A stretch of DNA of 33,310 bases, from positions 1 to 33,310 of the forward strand of contig CAMBFR010000040.1 of assembly GCA_945865815.1 (NCBI GenBank), in the 5' to 3' direction. This DNA is from Candidatus Sulfopaludibacter sp. SbA3. Lineage in GTDB: Bacteria; Acidobacteriota; Terriglobia; 20CM-2-55-15. Positions within the stretch are counted from its first letter, which is position 1; each line of letters begins with the position of its first letter. Positions 12,145 through 22,034 of this stretch are shown here, in pieces. The translations under genes and the position numbers were made by a program. Under the pieces are notes generated by a model. The model was not told the origin of the DNA and made no database searches. It worked only from the letters and a program-made list of their open reading frames with translations.

Positions 12145-13410
12145 ATGAGGCAATATCCGGCGATCGCAATGGAGCGAGCAATGAAAGTGCAGGAAGTGTT
12201 TATGCGGGCGATGGCAAAGAAGATCAGCTGGATGCAAGCAGCCGAGATCATGGGGGTGACAGACCGGACAATGCGTCGATGGAAGCATCGGCATGAGAAA
12301 TATGGGTATGTGCTGGATCAGCGATATGGGCGTGCGAGTGAGAAGAAAGTCGCGGTAGAAACGATCGAGAATATTTTGGGATTGTACCGAGATCAATACT
12401 TCGACTTCAGCGTTCGCCACTTTCACGAGAAACTGAGCAGCGAGCATGGAATTGGCCTCAGCTATACGTGGGTGAAACGGGCATTACAGGCGGCGGGGCT
12501 GGTAGCCAAGACCCGCGATCGACGAGTGCACCGAAGAAAACGGCCACGGCGGCCGCTGCCCGGGATGCTGCTGCACATCGATGGAAGCCATCATCAATGG
12601 TTCCAGGACGACCGCTGGTATGACTTGCTGGTGGTTCTCGACGACGCGACCAGCGAGGTCTATTACGCGCAATTGGTAGAAGATGAATCGACGCGAACCG
12701 TTTTGGCCGCTCTCCGCGATGTTGTCGAGCGACGGGGCTTGTTCTGTGCTCTCTACAGTGACCGAGCCAGTCACTTCTTCCTGACGCCTAAGGGCCAACA
12801 GACAGTCGATCCTCGTGCAAAGACACAAGTGGGCCGAGCCATGAAGGAATTGGGAATTCAAATGATTCCGGCCTATTCCCCGCAAGCTCGAGGCCGAGGA
12901 GAGCGGAATTTCAGAACCTGGCAAGGACGTCTTCCCCAGGAACTGCGCACTCGCCAGATTACGACTCCCGACGCGGCCAATGCCTTCTTACGCAACGTCT
13001 ATATTCAGCAGTTCAACGCCAGCTTCACCACGCCTGCAGCTCAGCAAGGAACGGCGTTTGTTCCCGCTGGTGTTCTGAATCTGGATCGCATCTTCTCCAT
13101 CCATCATGAGCGTGTGGTGAATGCCGACAACACGGTCCGTCTGGCGAACCTCCTGTTGCAGATTCAACCCACACCGTGGCGCTCGACTCTGGCCGGGTGC
13201 AGAGTGCTCGTCGTGGAACAGCTCGATGCCTCACTGACCATTCACTATGGGCCCCACGTCATTGGGCGGTATCAGCCTGATGGGCAGCCTTTGTGCGAGT
13301 CTTTAAAAATTCGATCGACGACCAAGAGGAAGAAAGAATCGGCCAAAAGAAAGGGGGCCGATTCTTTCTCGAACAGGGAGACCTCTGCGGCACGCCCTTC
13401 GCCACGATGA
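12145..13410 (+). CDS. DDE transposase (integrase core, ISNCY-type)
   Basis: A 421-residue protein. An N-terminal helix-turn-helix occupies about residues 20-50 (SWMQAAEIMGVTDRTMRRWK) and a second helical region runs to residue 120. An integrase-type catalytic core follows with Asp146 (LLHIDGSHHQWF), Asp206 (LYSDRASHFF) and Glu253 (ARGRGERNFRTWQ), a complete DDE triad. The ATG is preceded by AAGGAGG at ideal spacing. The protein looks intact, so the element may be mobile. The last 40 residues are basic and low-complexity and are encoded partly by a strong hairpin (13332-13368), so the natural C-terminus may once have been shorter. The ISNCY assignment rests on resemblance of the core and is not verified. 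Confidence 0.93.
   Translation: MRQYPAIAMERAMKVQEVFMRAMAKKISWMQAAEIMGVTDRTMRRWKHRHEKYGYVLDQRYGRASEKKVAVETIENILGLYRDQYFDFSVRHFHEKLSSEHGIGLSYTWVKRALQAAGLVAKTRDRRVHRRKRPRRPLPGMLLHIDGSHHQWFQDDRWYDLLVVLDDATSEVYYAQLVEDESTRTVLAALRDVVERRGLFCALYSDRASHFFLTPKGQQTVDPRAKTQVGRAMKELGIQMIPAYSPQARGRGERNFRTWQGRLPQELRTRQITTPDAANAFLRNVYIQQFNASFTTPAAQQGTAFVPAGVLNLDRIFSIHHERVVNADNTVRLANLLLQIQPTPWRSTLAGCRVLVVEQLDASLTIHYGPHVIGRYQPDGQPLCESLKIRSTTKRKKESAKRKGADSFSNRETSAARPSPR
13332..13368. other. Strong hairpin inside the transposase 3' end
   Basis: GAAAGAATCGGCC at 13332-13344 pairs perfectly with GGCCGATTCTTTC at 13356-13368 across an 11-base loop. It is terminator-like in strength, although it lies within the reading frame some 40 bases before the stop. 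It might end transcripts of the insertion sequence or block read-through from outside. Confidence 0.5.
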
Positions 13411-15371: not shown

Positions 15372-15400
15372 TGCATTAAGCGGTCCGGAAATTTTTGCGT

Positions 15401-16237
15401 ATGAATATGAAATCTCAAACACACAGTCATTCGGTTCAGGGACCGATGCTTGCGGCGTTCCTCGTTCTCCTTGTCGTGTTTTCCGCCGGCCTTTTCCTGC
15501 AGAGACAGTGGTGGCTGCCTTCGCTGGCCTCCGTGCACGGCGTGGACATCGACCGTGTATTCCTGGCTACGCTGGTGATCACAGGCGTTCTATTCATTGG
15601 CCTGCAATTGCTGCTGGCGTACTTCTCCGTACGTTACAGGGAGCAACAAGGGCGCCCCGCCCAGTGCTGGGTTCGGCCCGGACTCGAAAAACGCTTTGCG
15701 GTCATCGCTGCGGTGATCATCTTCGGCGTGGACATCGCGATCTTTGCGATGGGCGAAAGCGAATGGTTCAAGGCGTGGGGCGCGGCGCCGCCCGGGGCGG
15801 AGATCATCGAGGTTACGGGCGAGCAGTTCATGTGGCACTTTCGCTATCCGGGACAGGACAAAAGTTTTGGCCGCACCGAGCCTCGCCTGGTCTCCGCTAC
15901 GAATCCGCTTGGACTCGACCCGCAGGATCCTGCCGGCAAGGACGACGTCCTGTCGACGAACCTGCTGCATCTGGTCGTGGACAAGCCCGTTCGCCTGCAA
16001 CTGCGGGCGAAGGATGTGATCCACAGTTTCTTTCTGCCCAACCTCCGCGTAAAGCAGGACGTCGTGCCGGGAATGCGAATTGAAGTCTGGTTCCAGCCTG
16101 CGAAGGCCGGGGTGTACGAAATCGCCTGCGCCCAGCTTTGCGGGCTGGGTCATTACAGAATGCGGGCTTTCCTGACAGTCCAGCCGCAAGCGGAGTTTGA
16201 GAAGTGGCTCACGGAGTTGCGCGAAGGAGGGGATTGA
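15401..16237 (+). CDS. coxB: Cytochrome c oxidase subunit II
   Basis: A 278-residue protein. It carries the CuA site: His208 (DVIHSFFLPNLRVKQD), Cys243 and Cys247 (CAQLCGLGH), His251 and Met254. It accepts electrons from cytochrome c and passes them to subunit I. Three hydrophobic spans precede the periplasmic cupredoxin domain (about residues 16-35, 53-75 and 99-117); the first is probably the usual signal segment. There is no C-terminal haem domain. The ATG at 15401 was chosen over an ATG two codons later; neither has a strong ribosome site. The stop lies three bases before subunit I. The backbone-ligand Glu of the usual CSELC motif is Gln here, which should not abolish CuA. Confidence 0.95.
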   Translation: MNMKSQTHSHSVQGPMLAAFLVLLVVFSAGLFLQRQWWLPSLASVHGVDIDRVFLATLVITGVLFIGLQLLLAYFSVRYREQQGRPAQCWVRPGLEKRFAVIAAVIIFGVDIAIFAMGESEWFKAWGAAPPGAEIIEVTGEQFMWHFRYPGQDKSFGRTEPRLVSATNPLGLDPQDPAGKDDVLSTNLLHLVVDKPVRLQLRAKDVIHSFFLPNLRVKQDVVPGMRIEVWFQPAKAGVYEIACAQLCGLGHYRMRAFLTVQPQAEFEKWLTELREGGD

Positions 16238-16240
16238 TCG

Positions 16241-18010
16241 ATGTACCTGGTGGAAACCGGATCTGAGCACAAAGCGGGCTTCATTCGAAAATACGTTTTC
16301 AGCACGGATCACAAGATCGTTGGCCTGCAGTACTTCTTTACCGCCTTTGCGATGGCGATATTCGGCGGCCTTTTGTCGATTTTGATGCGGCTGCAACTGG
16401 GATGGCCTTCGCGGATGTGGCCCATGCTGGAAACAATCTTTCCTGTCGGCATGGCGGGCGGGGTTATGAGTCCGGAGTTCTATCTGGCGCTGCAGACCAT
16501 GCACGGCACGATCATGGCGATCTTCGTACTGACTGCGCTGTTCACCGGCGCATTCGGGAACTATCTGATCCCGCTTCAGATCGGCGCCCGCGACATGGCA
16601 TTTCCGCTCCTGAACATGCTTTCCTACTGGGTCTATCTGCTCTCGTGCATCGTTCTGGTACTCGCATTCTTCGTGGAAGGCGGAGCGCCAATATCCGGCT
16701 GGACGGCCTACGCGCCGTTGAGCGCGATTCCTGAATCGGGGCCGGGCCAGGCGATGGGGCAGAACCTGTGGCTGGTTGCGATCGCCCTGTTCACGGTTTC
16801 CTCGATGATGGGCGTTCTGAACTACATCACCACGATCGTTCAGGCGCGGACCAAAGGCATGACCATGAGCCGCGTGCCGCTGAACATCTGGGGAATGCTG
16901 TCGGCGTCCATCATTTCCATCATGGTCTTCCCGGTGCTGCTTGGCGCGGGCGTTTTGCTTCTGGCCGACCGGATTGGCGGGACGAGCTTTTTCGTGCCCG
17001 CCGGCCTGGTGATGGGCGATAAGTTGATTCCGCACTCCGGAGGGCATCCGCTGCTCTGGCAACACCTTTTCTGGTTCTTCGGTCATCCCGAGGTCTACAT
17101 CGTCATTGTTCCCGCAATGGGAATCGCCGCGGAAATCATTGCGACATTCATTCGCAAGCCCGTCTTTGGTTACAGGATCATGGCCGGCTGCTGGATCGCA
17201 GTCGTCGCCTTGAGCATGGTTGTCTGGGGGCACCACATGTTCGTCAGCGGCATGAATCCGTTCCTCGGCGGATTCTTCGCGCTGGCGACGCTCCTGATCA
17301 CGGTGCCCTCAGCCATCCTCGTCCTTTGCTGGGTAGTCAGCCTGTACGGAGCCCGGATTCAATTCACGACCCCCATGCTGTTTGCCCTGGGCTTTGTTTC
17401 TATTTTTGTGACCGGCGGCCTCGGCGGCTTTTTTCTGGGTTCCGCCTGGACGGATATTCAGCTTCACGACACCTACTTTGTCGTGGGTCACTTTCATCTC
17501 ACGATGGCCATGTCGCCGCTGTTCGCGGCATTCGCCGGAGTCTATTACTGGTTCCCCCGGATCTCTGGCCGCATGATGAACGAGCGGCTCGGCAGGGTAC
17601 ACTTCTGGATAAGCATCGCCGGCGCCTATGCCATTTTTCTTACCATGCACGTGATGGGCGTGGGCGGAATGCTCCGCCACAGTTACGACACAACGCAGTA
17701 CGACTTTCTCAAGCACCTTCAACCGCTGAATGTATTCGTTTCGTTCGCGGCATTTGCTCTCGCGGCATCGCAATTAATATTCATTCTTAACTTCCTGGTC
17801 AGCCTGTTCCGCGGTCCTCGCGCCGAGGCCAATCCATGGAAGGCAAACACGCTCGAGTGGGCGGCCCCGGCGCCGATCCCGCACGGAAACTGGGGAGCCG
17901 TCACGCCCGAAGTCCATCGGTGGCCATACGACTACATGGTCCCGGATGGCGGCGAGGACTTCCTGCCCCAGAATGCGCCCGCGGCCGTCCTCGAAAATAA
18001 GAGGTTTTGA
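16241..18010 (+). CDS. coxA: Cytochrome c oxidase subunit I (variant K-channel)
   Basis: A 589-residue haem-copper oxidase subunit I with about 12 membrane spans and a C-terminal tail. Haem and CuB ligands are complete: His88 (QTMHGT), His282 with Tyr286 (GHPEVY), His331-His332 (WGHHMF), and His417 and His419 (GHFHL). D-channel residues are present: Asp118 (GARDMAFP), Asn125 and Glu284. By gap-free alignment with Paracoccus-type enzymes, the K-channel block VPTGIKVF reads VPSAILVL, so the lysine is Leu360. The GMPRR pair near haem propionates reads GMLRH (residues 476-480). It reduces oxygen to water and should pump protons, but proton uptake through a normal K-channel looks impossible. It overlaps the subunit III start by one base. 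Confidence 0.96.
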   Translation: MYLVETGSEHKAGFIRKYVFSTDHKIVGLQYFFTAFAMAIFGGLLSILMRLQLGWPSRMWPMLETIFPVGMAGGVMSPEFYLALQTMHGTIMAIFVLTALFTGAFGNYLIPLQIGARDMAFPLLNMLSYWVYLLSCIVLVLAFFVEGGAPISGWTAYAPLSAIPESGPGQAMGQNLWLVAIALFTVSSMMGVLNYITTIVQARTKGMTMSRVPLNIWGMLSASIISIMVFPVLLGAGVLLLADRIGGTSFFVPAGLVMGDKLIPHSGGHPLLWQHLFWFFGHPEVYIVIVPAMGIAAEIIATFIRKPVFGYRIMAGCWIAVVALSMVVWGHHMFVSGMNPFLGGFFALATLLITVPSAILVLCWVVSLYGARIQFTTPMLFALGFVSIFVTGGLGGFFLGSAWTDIQLHDTYFVVGHFHLTMAMSPLFAAFAGVYYWFPRISGRMMNERLGRVHFWISIAGAYAIFLTMHVMGVGGMLRHSYDTTQYDFLKHLQPLNVFVSFAAFALAASQLIFILNFLVSLFRGPRAEANPWKANTLEWAAPAPIPHGNWGAVTPEVHRWPYDYMVPDGGEDFLPQNAPAAVLENKRF

Positions 18011-18636
18011 TGGAGACACTGGTTCATGAAAGGTCCACCCCTGAGGTGGCTGACGCGGTTGACGAGGTGGCCCAATCGCCTTTTACCGCAAACACACGCA
18101 AGTTCGGCATGTGGCTTTTCATCCTTTCGGATGCGCTGACTTTTGCCGCCCTGCTCGGCGCTTATGGTTTCATGCGGTTGACGAGCCCGGAATGGCCCGA
18201 ACAATCGGGCGTCTTTGATATCCGGTTGATCACCTTCATGACGTTCGTCCTTATAAGCAGCAGCGCCTCGATGGCGATGGCTGTATTTGCCGCTGAAAAC
18301 GGCGAGCGAAAACACACGCTCGGACTGCTTGGCGCAACCATCATCGGGGGAATCGTGTTTCTGGGCTGCCAGGCGTACGAATGGGCCCACTTCATCGGAG
18401 AGGGTGGAACGCTGTTCTTCAATCCATGGGGGGTGCCGCAATTCAGCGCGAGTTTCTTCCTGATCACGGGGTTCCATGGCTTTCACGTGCTCTCGGGCGT
18501 GGTGCTCCTGGCGGTGGTCTGGGTTCTCTCACTGCTTGGCCGGTGTTCGGCGAATGGCGTTGAACTGGCGGGTCTCTACTGGCACTTCGTGGATGTGGTC
18601 TGGGTGTTCGTATTCGCCTTCTTCTATCTGCTGTAG
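18010..18636 (+). CDS. coxC: Cytochrome c oxidase subunit III
   Basis: A 208-residue membrane protein. It has five hydrophobic spans with the family motifs GMWLFILSDALTFAALLGAY (from residue 34), FLGCQAYEWAHFI, SFFLITGFHGFHVLSGV and AGLYWHFVDVVWVFVFAFFY at the end. This is the short five-helix form, lacking the first two helices of mitochondrial subunit III. The start ATG shares one base with the subunit I stop (TGATG). No subunit IV, haem A synthase or CtaG-type copper chaperone gene follows; a palindromic repeat begins three bases after the stop and may terminate the operon. Confidence 0.95.
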   Translation: METLVHERSTPEVADAVDEVAQSPFTANTRKFGMWLFILSDALTFAALLGAYGFMRLTSPEWPEQSGVFDIRLITFMTFVLISSSASMAMAVFAAENGERKHTLGLLGATIIGGIVFLGCQAYEWAHFIGEGGTLFFNPWGVPQFSASFFLITGFHGFHVLSGVVLLAVVWVLSLLGRCSANGVELAGLYWHFVDVVWVFVFAFFYLL

Positions 18637-18878: not shown

Positions 18879-18913
18879 GGTGTTCGCGACCCGTCCTGAC
18901 ACTTTGTCATGGC

Positions 18914-18949
18914 GCCAATTCATGCCCCGGCATGCTGTGACGAATTGGC
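18914..18949. promoter_or_regulatory. Inverted pair GCCAATTC/GAATTGGC upstream of ligA
   Basis: GCCAATTC (18914-18921) and GAATTGGC (18942-18949) are perfect complements across 20 bases, with a smaller CATGCC/GGCATG pair inside. The position, about 110 bp upstream of the ligA start, suits an operator, but no regulator is identified. Confidence 0.35.
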
Positions 18950-19055
18950 AGAAAGGCAACGCGCCGGCCTTCGGATCTCTTCAGGAAACTTCCATTATTT
19001 CTATTCGATACGCCGTTGCGCCGGTTTGGCAGAAATCGTGCGACAAACGCCCAAC

Positions 19056-19412
19056 ATGAAAACAAGTCTGGAAAACCACAAGATACCGGGCACGATTATT
19101 TTTGATGGACAGCGCGCAATCGACGGATACGCGCTCAACAAGATGTGCTTTTCATTCAATAGCGCTGAAAACCGGGCGGCGTTTCTGAGCGACCCGGACG
19201 CTTACTGCCGGAAATTCAACCTTACCGACAAGCAGCGCGAGGCCGTCAAGAGCCGTGACGTGCTGGGGTTGCTCGAGTCGGGCGGGCACATTTACTACCT
19301 CGCCAAGTGGGGCGGCATTATCGGATTGGGCGTGCAGGACCTGGGTGCCCAACAGACAGGAATGACCGTGGAAGAGTTCAAGGCGATGCTTGCTCGAGGA
19401 GGAGCGCACTAA
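19056..19412 (+). CDS. ligA: LigA-like alpha subunit of a class III extradiol dioxygenase
   Basis: A 118-residue helical protein with the LigA-family pattern: GYALNKMCFSFNSAENRAAF (residues 29-48), DPDAYCRKFNLTDKQREAV and a final GMTVEEFKAMLARGG. In protocatechuate 4,5-dioxygenase this subunit caps the LigB active site. It lies three bases upstream of the LigB-like gene and is in the usual order. The start at 19056 was chosen because the conserved domain begins there and upstream codons look non-coding; there is no clear ribosome site, so it may be leaderless. The true substrate may be protocatechuate, gallate or another catechol. Confidence 0.88.
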   Translation: MKTSLENHKIPGTIIFDGQRAIDGYALNKMCFSFNSAENRAAFLSDPDAYCRKFNLTDKQREAVKSRDVLGLLESGGHIYYLAKWGGIIGLGVQDLGAQQTGMTVEEFKAMLARGGAH

Positions 19413-19415
19413 ACA

Positions 19416-20306
19416 ATGGCCACAATAGTCGGCGGTATAGCAACGTCCCACATTCCCACTATCGGCAAGGCGATCGGCAAAGGATGGTGTAACGAGCCGG
19501 AGTGGAAGCCCTTCTTTGACAGCTACAAACCCGTCCATGCGTGGCTCGAAAAGGTTCGGCCCGACGTCGCAGTGGTTGTTTACAACGACCACGGCCTCAA
19601 TTTCTTTCTGAACAACATGCCCACCTTCGCCGTCGGGGCGGCGGCGCGGTACGATAACTCCGACGAAGGCTGGGGCCTGAACGTGGTTCCACCGTTCGCC
19701 GGATATCCGGAATTCTCCTGGGGCCTCATCGAATCGATGGTTGCCGACGAATTCGATATCACTTCCTGCCAGGAGATGCTGGTGGACCACGGCTTCACGG
19801 TAGCGATGGGGCTGCTGTGGCCGAAAGAGAAGGGGCCGTGTCCTGTCCGAACCGTTCCGATCTCGGTCAACACTGTCCAATCCCCGCTCCCCTCTCCGGC
19901 TCGCTGCTACAAACTCGGGCGCGCGCTGGGCAAGGCAATCGAGGCATTCGACGAGGACCTGCGCGTTGTTGTCGTCGGAACCGGCGGCTTATCGCATCAA
20001 CTCGACGGCACCAGGGCCGGATTCGTCAACAAGGACTTCGACCTCCTGTGCATGGAAAAGATCGTCACCGATCCCGAGGCGCTCACGGACTATTCCATAC
20101 CCGACTTGATTCGGCTGACCGGAGCGCAGGGAGTTGAGGTGATTCAGTGGCTGGTCATGCGGGGCGCACTCACGGGCCAGGTGTCCAAAGTCCATAGCCG
20201 ATATCACGGCGTGATCTCAAACACCTCCGCCGCAGTGATGGTTCTCGAGAACAGCTGCGCCGATGAGCGGCATGCCCGTGAGCATGTACTCCAGGAGCAT
20301 CTATGA
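19416..20306 (+). CDS. ligB: LigB-like catalytic subunit of a class III extradiol dioxygenase
   Basis: A 296-residue protein. Metal and catalytic residues of the LigB family are visible: His12 (IATSHIPTIG), His59 (YNDHGLNFF) and Glu241 (GAQGVEVIQWL) as iron ligands, and His194 (GTGGLSHQLDG) as the acid-base catalyst. It should cleave the ring of a catechol-type aromatic acid beside the hydroxyl pair using Fe(II) and oxygen. LigA is encoded three bases upstream. No other genes of the 4,5-cleavage pathway (ligC, ligI, ligJ, ligK) occur in the window, so the substrate and pathway are unproven. The stop overlaps an ATG (ATGA) that begins a six-codon minicistron leading into the receiver gene. Confidence 0.92.
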   Translation: MATIVGGIATSHIPTIGKAIGKGWCNEPEWKPFFDSYKPVHAWLEKVRPDVAVVVYNDHGLNFFLNNMPTFAVGAAARYDNSDEGWGLNVVPPFAGYPEFSWGLIESMVADEFDITSCQEMLVDHGFTVAMGLLWPKEKGPCPVRTVPISVNTVQSPLPSPARCYKLGRALGKAIEAFDEDLRVVVVGTGGLSHQLDGTRAGFVNKDFDLLCMEKIVTDPEALTDYSIPDLIRLTGAQGVEVIQWLVMRGALTGQVSKVHSRYHGVISNTSAAVMVLENSCADERHAREHVLQEHL

Positions 20307-20691
20307 AAGCCTGCGGGCGCTAGGTGTGGCCACTATTCTGGTTTCCGACGACGAGGAGACCTGCCGCCACTCAGTACAGAAGGTCCTCGAACGAGAGGGG
20401 CACCATGTCGAGGCCGTCGAGAGCGTCGATGGCGCTCTCGAGAGGCTCAGCGCGCGGAAGTTCGATCTGATCGTTTGTGATTATCGAATGCCGGGCAAGA
20501 CCGGTATCGACCTGCTGGCGGAATTGGGAAGACTCCATTCCGTGGTGCCCGTCATATTGATTTCAGCGTACGCGGACCACAGCACCGAAGTCACCGCAAG
20601 AGCGATGGGCGCCGTGGACCTGTTGCATAAGCCTCTCCGCCGGAAGGAGCTTATTGACTGCGTTAAAAGGGCAATTGGATTTCAACGATGA
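20263..20691 (+). CDS. Stand-alone response regulator receiver protein
   Basis: A receiver domain with no output domain: acidic pair Asp29-Asp30 (LVSDDEE), phosphoacceptor Asp73 (VCDYRMPG), Ser101 and Lys123 (LHKPLRR), numbered from the ATG at 20263. The real start is unsure: the first 21 residues overlap ligB by up to 44 bases and look unlike a receiver. The domain proper begins at the GTG at 20326 (VATILVSDDEE), typical of receivers. A good AGGAG-ATG pair at 20293-20305 is out of frame. No histidine kinase is encoded nearby. Its stop overlaps the hemN start (ATGA), so it is co-translated with hemN. It may signal through a distant kinase or by protein contact. Confidence 0.85.
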   Translation: MSGMPVSMYSRSIYESLRALGVATILVSDDEETCRHSVQKVLEREGHHVEAVESVDGALERLSARKFDLIVCDYRMPGKTGIDLLAELGRLHSVVPVILISAYADHSTEVTARAMGAVDLLHKPLRRKELIDCVKRAIGFQR

Positions 20692-22034
20692 CTTCCCACC
20701 TTCAGCTCAGTGATGACCTCCTCGATCGCTACAACCGGCCGACACCCCGTTACACCAGCTATCCGCCGGCTCCGCATTGGGGCGACGCCGGCCCCGCCCA
20801 TCTGATCGGCGCGCTCGAAAAATCAACGCGGCCGCTTTCCGTTTACATGCACATTCCTTTTTGTGAGCGGCTGTGTCTGTACTGCGGGTGCAACGTAATC
20901 ATCAACAAGGATCACTCGGCGGCGGATGCGTACGTGGCACGGCTGATCGCCGAAATGGACCTGCTCGTCGCGGCTCACGGCCACAGGGTGAATCAGGTCC
21001 ACTGGGGCGGTGGAACCCCGACTTACCTGGACTGCCGGCAGATAACGGAATTGTTTAACGCCCTTCGGACTCGCTTTTGTCTGGATGATAACGCCGAAGT
21101 CTCCATTGAGATCGATCCGCGGGTCACGACTTTGGAGCAGCTTGTTACGTTGCGTTCGGCCGGCTTTAACCGGTTGAGCGTCGGCGTTCAGGATTTCGAT
21201 CCCATCGTGCAGCAGGCCGTGCGGCGCATTCAACCTTTCGCCATGACGAGCGAGCTCATCGAGCAGGCGAGGTCCCTCAATTTCGACAGCATCAATCTGG
21301 ACCTGATCTACGGACTGCCGATGCAGACCCTCACCTCGTTTGAGAGGACGCTTCAGCAGGTGTTACGGCTCAGCCCCGATCGGATCGCGATGTTCAGCTA
21401 CGCTCATGTCCCGTCTCTCAAGCATCAACAGCGAAGCTTCGAGAAGGACCTGCCGACGGAGTCCGAGAAATCGGATTTGTTCCTCATGGGACTGCAGACT
21501 CTGACCAGTCATGGCTACGAGCACATCGGCCTGGATCACTTCGCCCGGCCGGACGATCCCCTTGCGATTGCGCGCGCAACCGGATCGTTGCACCGGAATT
21601 TCCAGGGCTACACCACCCACGCGGAGACCGACCTTATAGCCCTTGGCGTGAGTTCGATCAGCCATGTGGGCAATACCTACGCGCAGAATTACCGCGAACT
21701 CGCTCCCTACAACAACGCCATCGACGAGAAACGCCTGCCGGTTTTTCGCGGGTATGTCATGTCCGCCGACGACGAGATACGAGCTGCCGTGATCGAAAGC
21801 GTCCTCTGCAACAGGGTGGTCCGCAAGCTCGATATCCAATCGGCGTTTTCAATCTCGTTTGATGATTACTTCGGTTTCGAACTGGACCGCCTGTCGGAGT
21901 TTCAGCGTGATGATCTGGTGGAGATGGACTCCCGGGAGATTCGGGTGACCGACGTGGGCCGGTTTTTCGTACGGTCTATCGCGCAGGTCTTCGACGCTTT
22001 CGCGCCCGCCGGAGTCGCCTCAAAAGCGGTATAG
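20688..22034 (+). CDS. hemN: Oxygen-independent coproporphyrinogen III oxidase
   Basis: A 448-residue radical SAM enzyme. The 4Fe-4S motif is Cys59-x3-Cys63-x2-Cys66-x-Cys68 (CERLCLYCGC), the arrangement specific to true HemN. Further signatures are RPTPRYTSYPPAPHW near the start, HWGGGTPTYL, EIDPRVTT, LSVGVQDF and DLIYGLPMQT. It decarboxylates coproporphyrinogen III to protoporphyrinogen IX without oxygen, supplying haem in low oxygen. It is coupled to the receiver gene by ATGA. A haem enzyme for anoxia in an operon with an oxygen-using dioxygenase hints at oxygen-responsive control. It converges on the hydrolase gene with 23 bases between. Confidence 0.95.
   Translation: MTSHLQLSDDLLDRYNRPTPRYTSYPPAPHWGDAGPAHLIGALEKSTRPLSVYMHIPFCERLCLYCGCNVIINKDHSAADAYVARLIAEMDLLVAAHGHRVNQVHWGGGTPTYLDCRQITELFNALRTRFCLDDNAEVSIEIDPRVTTLEQLVTLRSAGFNRLSVGVQDFDPIVQQAVRRIQPFAMTSELIEQARSLNFDSINLDLIYGLPMQTLTSFERTLQQVLRLSPDRIAMFSYAHVPSLKHQQRSFEKDLPTESEKSDLFLMGLQTLTSHGYEHIGLDHFARPDDPLAIARATGSLHRNFQGYTTHAETDLIALGVSSISHVGNTYAQNYRELAPYNNAIDEKRLPVFRGYVMSADDEIRAAVIESVLCNRVVRKLDIQSAFSISFDDYFGFELDRLSEFQRDDLVEMDSREIRVTDVGRFFVRSIAQVFDAFAPAGVASKAV

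Follow-up and report, generated by a model that had tools for sequence, protein, structure and literature searches.

A family A oxidase subunit I without the K-channel lysine in an acidobacterium, and a serine or threonine that accompanies hydrophobic replacement of this residue

The need for two proton channels in haem-copper oxidases and the role of the K-channel lysine have been debated for decades, mainly on impaired laboratory mutants. The window analyzed here, a stretch of 33,310 nucleotides from Candidatus Sulfopaludibacter sp. SbA3 (Acidobacteriota), brings the same question to a natural enzyme, as it encodes an oxidase subunit I (CoxI) with a leucine at the position of this lysine: is the lysine truly missing and, if so, how does the enzyme load its protons? 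The K-channel is used for 1 to 2 protons during the reductive phase, and all others come through the D-channel (PMC6423279). When the lysine is replaced in the R. sphaeroides K362M mutant, an electron reaches the binuclear centre and transfer is incomplete, and K362 is regarded as necessary for delivery through the K-channel (PMC10341450). Considering this requirement in the studied enzymes, the original prediction that the window enzyme loads protons differently is a fair inference.

K-channel residues and class of the window oxidase

The translated coxI gene (Table 1) matches TIGR02891 (CtaD_CoxA) with E=1.1e-173 and 578.6 bits, which is below the curated cut-off of 670.75, and matches PDB sequences with E values down to 6.9e-112. 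Residues were numbered by a phmmer alignment to P. denitrificans 1AR1_A, gap-free through the block of interest, counting along the alignment. Positions 360, 357, 297, 286 and 284 of the window CoxI correspond in this way to K354, T351, S291, Y280 and E278 of the P. denitrificans (Pd) enzyme; R. sphaeroides (Rs) numbers are given where the literature uses them, and residues were placed in the channels from this numbering and from the literature. The alignment and the codon, CTC, bear out the absence of the lysine, whose position is taken by Leu360. The VPSAILVL block that contains it had been placed at 17306-17329 and actually lies at 17303-17326.

Two trivial explanations were rejected. An alignment slip hiding a lysine is contradicted by the gap-free alignment and by helix 340-368 of the CoxI model, which contains zero Lys, Arg, His, Asp or Glu, so that the helix offers no other charged residue as a substitute for the lysine. 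A sequence error is contradicted by an ortholog from another genus with the same block, and by the three base changes that are needed to pass from a Lys codon (AAR) to CTC.

Judged from the aligned residues, the K-channel is dismantled by more than the exchange noticed at first: besides K354 to Leu, the Pd S291 position is Ala297, the Rs S365 site, a K-channel residue (PMC9687966) that is Asn in Lys-bearing kin, is Cys363, and a hydroxyl has been gained at Thr354. The original prediction also noted that the nearby Thr is Ser; Ser357 is indeed present, but it was rejected as a part of the loss, since Ser is usual in the Lys-bearing kin (54/58). Thus, for the K-channel set Lys354, Thr351, Ser291 and Tyr280 (PMC3084760), the window enzyme has L360, S357, A297 and Y286.

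The rest of the catalytic machinery is retained. Residue comparison confirmed that Asp118, Asn125 and Glu284 of the D-channel and all metal ligands are kept, as had been proposed: of the A1 D-channel residues (PMC3084760), Asp124, Asn113, Asn131 and Glu278 are found as D118, N107, N125 and E284, and the haem and CuB ligands with the active-site tyrosine (Tyr-I) as H88, H282, H331, H332, H417, H419 and Y286. The AlphaFold model of CoxI, for which an alignment of 52 family members was the input, has a mean pLDDT of 91.7; its superposition on R. sphaeroides CcO gives Z 50.7 and rmsd 1.9 Å over 516 residues, and that on the K362M mutant (PDB 3OM3) gives Z 50.6.

Table 1. Oxidase features in the window, with positions counted from its first nucleotide
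Feature	Position	Strand	Observation
coxII / ctaC	15395..16237	+	CuA ligands present; Glu98, the K-channel entrance Glu (Rs II E101), kept
coxI / ctaD	16241..18010	+	589 aa, A-family haem-copper oxidase subunit I without K-channel Lys; open ORF
Glu284-Val-Tyr286	17090..17098	+	Pd E278, the gating Glu, and Pd Y280, the cross-link Tyr, are retained
Ala297	17129..17131	+	K-channel Ser site (Pd S291 / Rs S299); Ser in 58/58 closest Lys-bearing kin
Thr354	17300..17302	+	covarying hydroxyl (Pd A348 / Rs A356); Ala/Gly in 144/148 Lys-bearing relatives
VPSAILVL block	17303..17326	+	helix VIII; from the CoxI translation
Leu360	17318..17320	+	K-channel lysine position (Pd K354 / Rs K362), codon CTC; codon reading and alignment
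Cys363	17327..17329	+	Rs S365 site; Asn in Lys-bearing kin
coxIII / ctaE	18007..18636	+	PF00510, 1.3e-19

By tree, fold and active site, the window CoxI is a member of family A; lacking the full K-channel set, it is a variant and not a canonical A1 enzyme. With the A1-type aa3 oxidases of P. denitrificans and R. sphaeroides it shares the fold, the six His ligands, Tyr-I, the Glu of the A1 D-channel, a CuA subunit II and a subunit III, and differs by Leu for K354, Ala for S291, Cys at the S365 site and Thr for A356. The K362M mutant resembles it in fold and in carrying a hydrophobic residue for Lys; however, it is laboratory-made and impaired, and has neither the Ser/Thr at A356 nor the changes at S291 and S365. 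A proton channel without Lys is a defining trait of types B and C (PMC3084760), and B-type (ba3) enzymes share the missing lysine with the window enzyme, but they have Thr, Ser and Tyr for the K-channel residues and no D-channel (PMC3084760), whereas the window enzyme has Leu, Ser and Ala and a D-channel.

Relatives, selection and repeated loss of the lysine

A search among relatives for the VPSAILVL block showed that the lysine is also absent in an ortholog (L084) from another genus of the same family, which is 79% identical to the window CoxI and reads VPSAILMLCW. The window genome encodes CtaA and two CoxI; the second copy is 61% identical to the first, keeps the Lys (VPSAVKTFNW) and is split across two contigs. 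The genome of the ortholog also has a Lys-bearing paralog, and the paralogs are 60-61% identical in both genomes. This coexistence extends to 6/6 genomes of the window clade and of a second K-less clade (L101-L104). By the NG86 method, dN/dS is 0.124 for the K-less ortholog pair; the Lys-bearing pair from these genomes gives 0.096, both values being rough with dS of about 1.2, near saturation. At the level of these sequences, the K-less coxI is under purifying selection. With the D-channel, the ligands, the Tyr and the CoxII Glu retained, and a dN/dS of about 0.12, the window CoxI looks functional, and the enzyme is very probably a real, working K-less oxidase of family A.

The neighbourhood shared with the locus of the ortholog is limited to CoxII-CoxI, the LigAB genes and CoxIII not being adjacent to the ortholog; the context is not conserved and therefore gives no function. 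Directly downstream of coxIII, at 18909-20306, the window encodes subunits of an aromatic-ring-opening dioxygenase, LigA (PF07746) and LigB (PF02900), which do not adjoin the ortholog in L168. An ORF similar to transposases with an integrase core (rve) lies at 12145-13410, about 2 kb upstream of coxII, and a HemN-like ORF (oxygen-independent coproporphyrinogen III oxidase, named by eye) lies at 20688-22034, shortly downstream of the oxidase set.

The comparison was widened to 252 A-family CoxI, collected by searching at class and phylum level and by taking in the genomes of named loci; the set is heavy on Acidobacteriota and most of its genomes are metagenome-assembled. The active-site Tyr is present in 252/252, and the residue at the lysine position is Lys in 148, hydrophobic in 91 and polar in 13. 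In a tree of 56 sequences, built without the K-channel columns, the window enzyme is nested among Lys-bearing A-family CoxI; the sister group of its K-less clade is formed by the Lys-bearing paralogs of the same family (96/95 support), and six changes are needed at the lysine position. A single loss uniting the window clade with the K-less clade of Acidobacteriaceae was rejected (AU p = 5e-06). The grouping of the window and L101-L104 clades gave AU p = 0.21, and these two may share one lysine loss. The missing lysine is thus not the oddity of one enzyme for which it was first taken: according to the compared sequences, it is replaced by a hydrophobic residue repeatedly, with several independent origins, and the nearest relatives of the window enzyme hold the Lys in the paralog.

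Other departures from the canonical channels were seen in the same set. CoxI-like proteins of Acidobacteriota and other phyla (L128-L133, L024, L177) have the CuB His replaced (Gln282; Gln, Glu or Tyr at 331) while the Tyr and the haem ligands are kept, together with Leu, Val or Glu for Lys and Glu for D124; they may be members other than oxidases, in which the CuB site is altered or missing. The opposite change, Arg for D124 with the K-channel Lys kept, is found in family f9 and its neighbours (L136, L140, L141, L143, L145-L147). Ser, Gly or Gln occupies D124 in L144, L148, L149, L151, L155 and L158, and both channels are altered in L142 and L152 (D124 to Arg and K354 to Glu). Bradyrhizobium, Mesorhizobium and Methylocystis enzymes (L060, L062, L079, L242) carry Gln for K354 and Asn for D124, both amides. 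In addition, two public bins are probably mislabelled: a 'Klebsiella pneumoniae' MAG contig that carries a Myxococcota-type CoxI (L049), and an 'Acidimicrobiia' MAG whose CoxI (L001) is identical over the tree columns to the acidobacterial L112.

A hydroxyl residue that accompanies loss of the lysine

Loss of the lysine covaries with the residue at position 354 of the window CoxI (Rs A356), which by helix register is a turn away from both T359 and T352 and is among the residues that delimit the K-channel volume in simulations (PMC9687966). Ser or Thr is found there in 82/82 CoxI with a hydrophobic residue for Lys and intact CuB and haem a3 ligands, in 4/148 Lys-bearing CoxI, in 1/13 with a polar residue for Lys, and in 0/9 with a hydrophobic residue and changed ligands. 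When only sequences with the Asp of the D-channel entrance are taken and dereplicated at 90%, Ser/Thr occurs in 57/57 vs 4/98 (Fisher p = 4e-38, kinship ignored). Position 354 is the best correlated of 530 columns, 360 itself excepted; the next are 297 (S291), 364, 321 and 363, of which three belong to the channel region. A further column, 223 (Ala to Ser), was discarded as a correlate, as it held for the first set only and Ser also occurs there in 24 Lys-bearing rows.

Independent pairs were used against kinship; supported branches yielded five of them, and all branches together seven. For the five supported pairs, in which D124 is kept, nearly every draw pairs Ser/Thr with Lys loss five times out of five, and the sign test gives p = 0.0625, the minimum attainable with n=5. 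The pattern, noticed at first in 119 sequences, persisted when new groups joined, including enzymes in which Lys is replaced by Phe, Tyr or Val and enzymes of Chloroflexota.

One K-less group, the Myxococcota/Verrucomicrobiota-type CoxI with an IP(I/V)AEM block (L036-L053), resembles the window enzyme in having a hydrophobic residue for Lys, Ser at 354 and a kept D-channel; on the contrary, its origin is separate, T351 is Ile or Val, and the CoxII entrance Glu is mostly lost. This Glu is kept in the window and L101-L104 clades. Two clades that share the Ser/Thr gain have lost it, the K-less one of Acidobacteriaceae and, for the most part, the Myxococcota-type one. A general solution can tentatively be proposed, which we would sooner doubt than accept: each hydrophobic replacement of K362 in an intact enzyme would be paired with Ala/Gly356 to Ser/Thr, the hydroxyl would take over the role of the lysine for the Tyr/water cluster, and the D-channel alone would suffice.

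Proton supply and alternative readings

The explanation that we favour for the window enzyme, with a probability of roughly 0.45 on the sequence data, is a working second A1-like oxidase with a dismantled K-channel, a proton supply through the D-channel only, and Thr354 supporting the Tyr cluster. Leu360, Ala297 and Cys363 give the K path a more hydrophobic middle than Lys-bearing kin have, and this part would no longer conduct, so that the D-channel probably supplies all protons; those for chemistry and those for pumping would both enter by Asp118, Asn125 and Glu284. The hydroxyl of Thr354, one turn above Ser357 toward Tyr286, would hold the water/Tyr cluster below haem a3-CuB in an ordered state that can be protonated. 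A slower reductive phase would be the cost, tolerable for an auxiliary oxidase. Two facts count against this explanation: the impairment of K362M and the need for K362 in K-channel delivery speak against turnover supported by the D-channel alone, and the kept Glu98 of CoxII is unexpected were the K path wholly dead.

That same Glu98 is the starting point of the main alternative, namely that a Lys-free K path still conducts, from Glu98 through a transient water wire to Ser357, Thr354 and Thr350 and on to Tyr286, as in families B and C. The hydroxyl gained at a channel-lining site (PMC9687966) and the B-type enzymes, which run on an alternative K-channel without Lys (PMC3084760), are consistent with such a path. 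The more hydrophobic middle of the window channel, where type B has Thr, Ser and Tyr, makes it rather unlikely, and as a general answer it meets the loss of the entrance Glu in two other K-less clades with the same Ser/Thr gain.

The enzyme could also not be chiefly an O2 reductase and act as a proton-pumping cytochrome c peroxidase or as a slow, redox-balancing oxidase. Oxidase activity is lost in K-channel mutants, but peroxidase activity persists, as it can do without the K path: block of the K-channel spares a partial peroxidase activity (PMC10095113, citing Vygodina 1998). Such a role would also suit an enzyme that, in each of the six genomes of the window and L101 clades, accompanies a Lys-bearing oxidase as a second one. 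We consider this improbable, as Tyr286 and all ligands are kept, no change points to a new substrate, and a peroxidase role alone would not account for the Ser/Thr covariation.

Relaxed selection on a decaying duplicate, in which the K-channel was lost as unneeded, would agree with the longer stem branch of the window clade (0.37 vs 0.12 for the Lys-bearing sister); it is quite improbable considering the dN/dS of the K-less pair, the full-length frames, the kept catalytic residues, the same block in two genera, and a change that is repeated and patterned. Finally, a nitric oxide reductase derived from family A, conceivable since the superfamily has several such branches that count oxidases among their relatives and possess no proton channels (PMC8756737), is highly improbable, because the window enzyme has the Tyr of oxygen reductases (Tyr286) where cNOR and qNOR have Glu, sNOR Asn and eNOR Gln (PMC8756737, Table A4).

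Loss of the K-channel within family A is already known from archaea. Seven independent K-channel losses were considered for archaeal family A oxidases, in which this channel is lost or variant (Degli Esposti et al. 2021, PMC8239418), and the repeated loss within family A is common to those enzymes and to the present ones, here in bacteria. For Acidobacteria, several caa3-type A1 and A2 oxidases used at nanomolar O2 have been described, with no mention of the lysine (PMC8407424). No description of the Ser/Thr356 covariation or of bacterial K-less clades was found in the open-access literature searched; both may be undescribed, or may in part be known already.

In conclusion, natural Lys-free enzymes with one candidate compensating residue make the role of the lysine testable. 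Moreover, annotations as 'aa3 oxidase' in Acidobacteriota and Myxococcota conceal enzymes for which no pumping yield per oxygen can be taken for granted.
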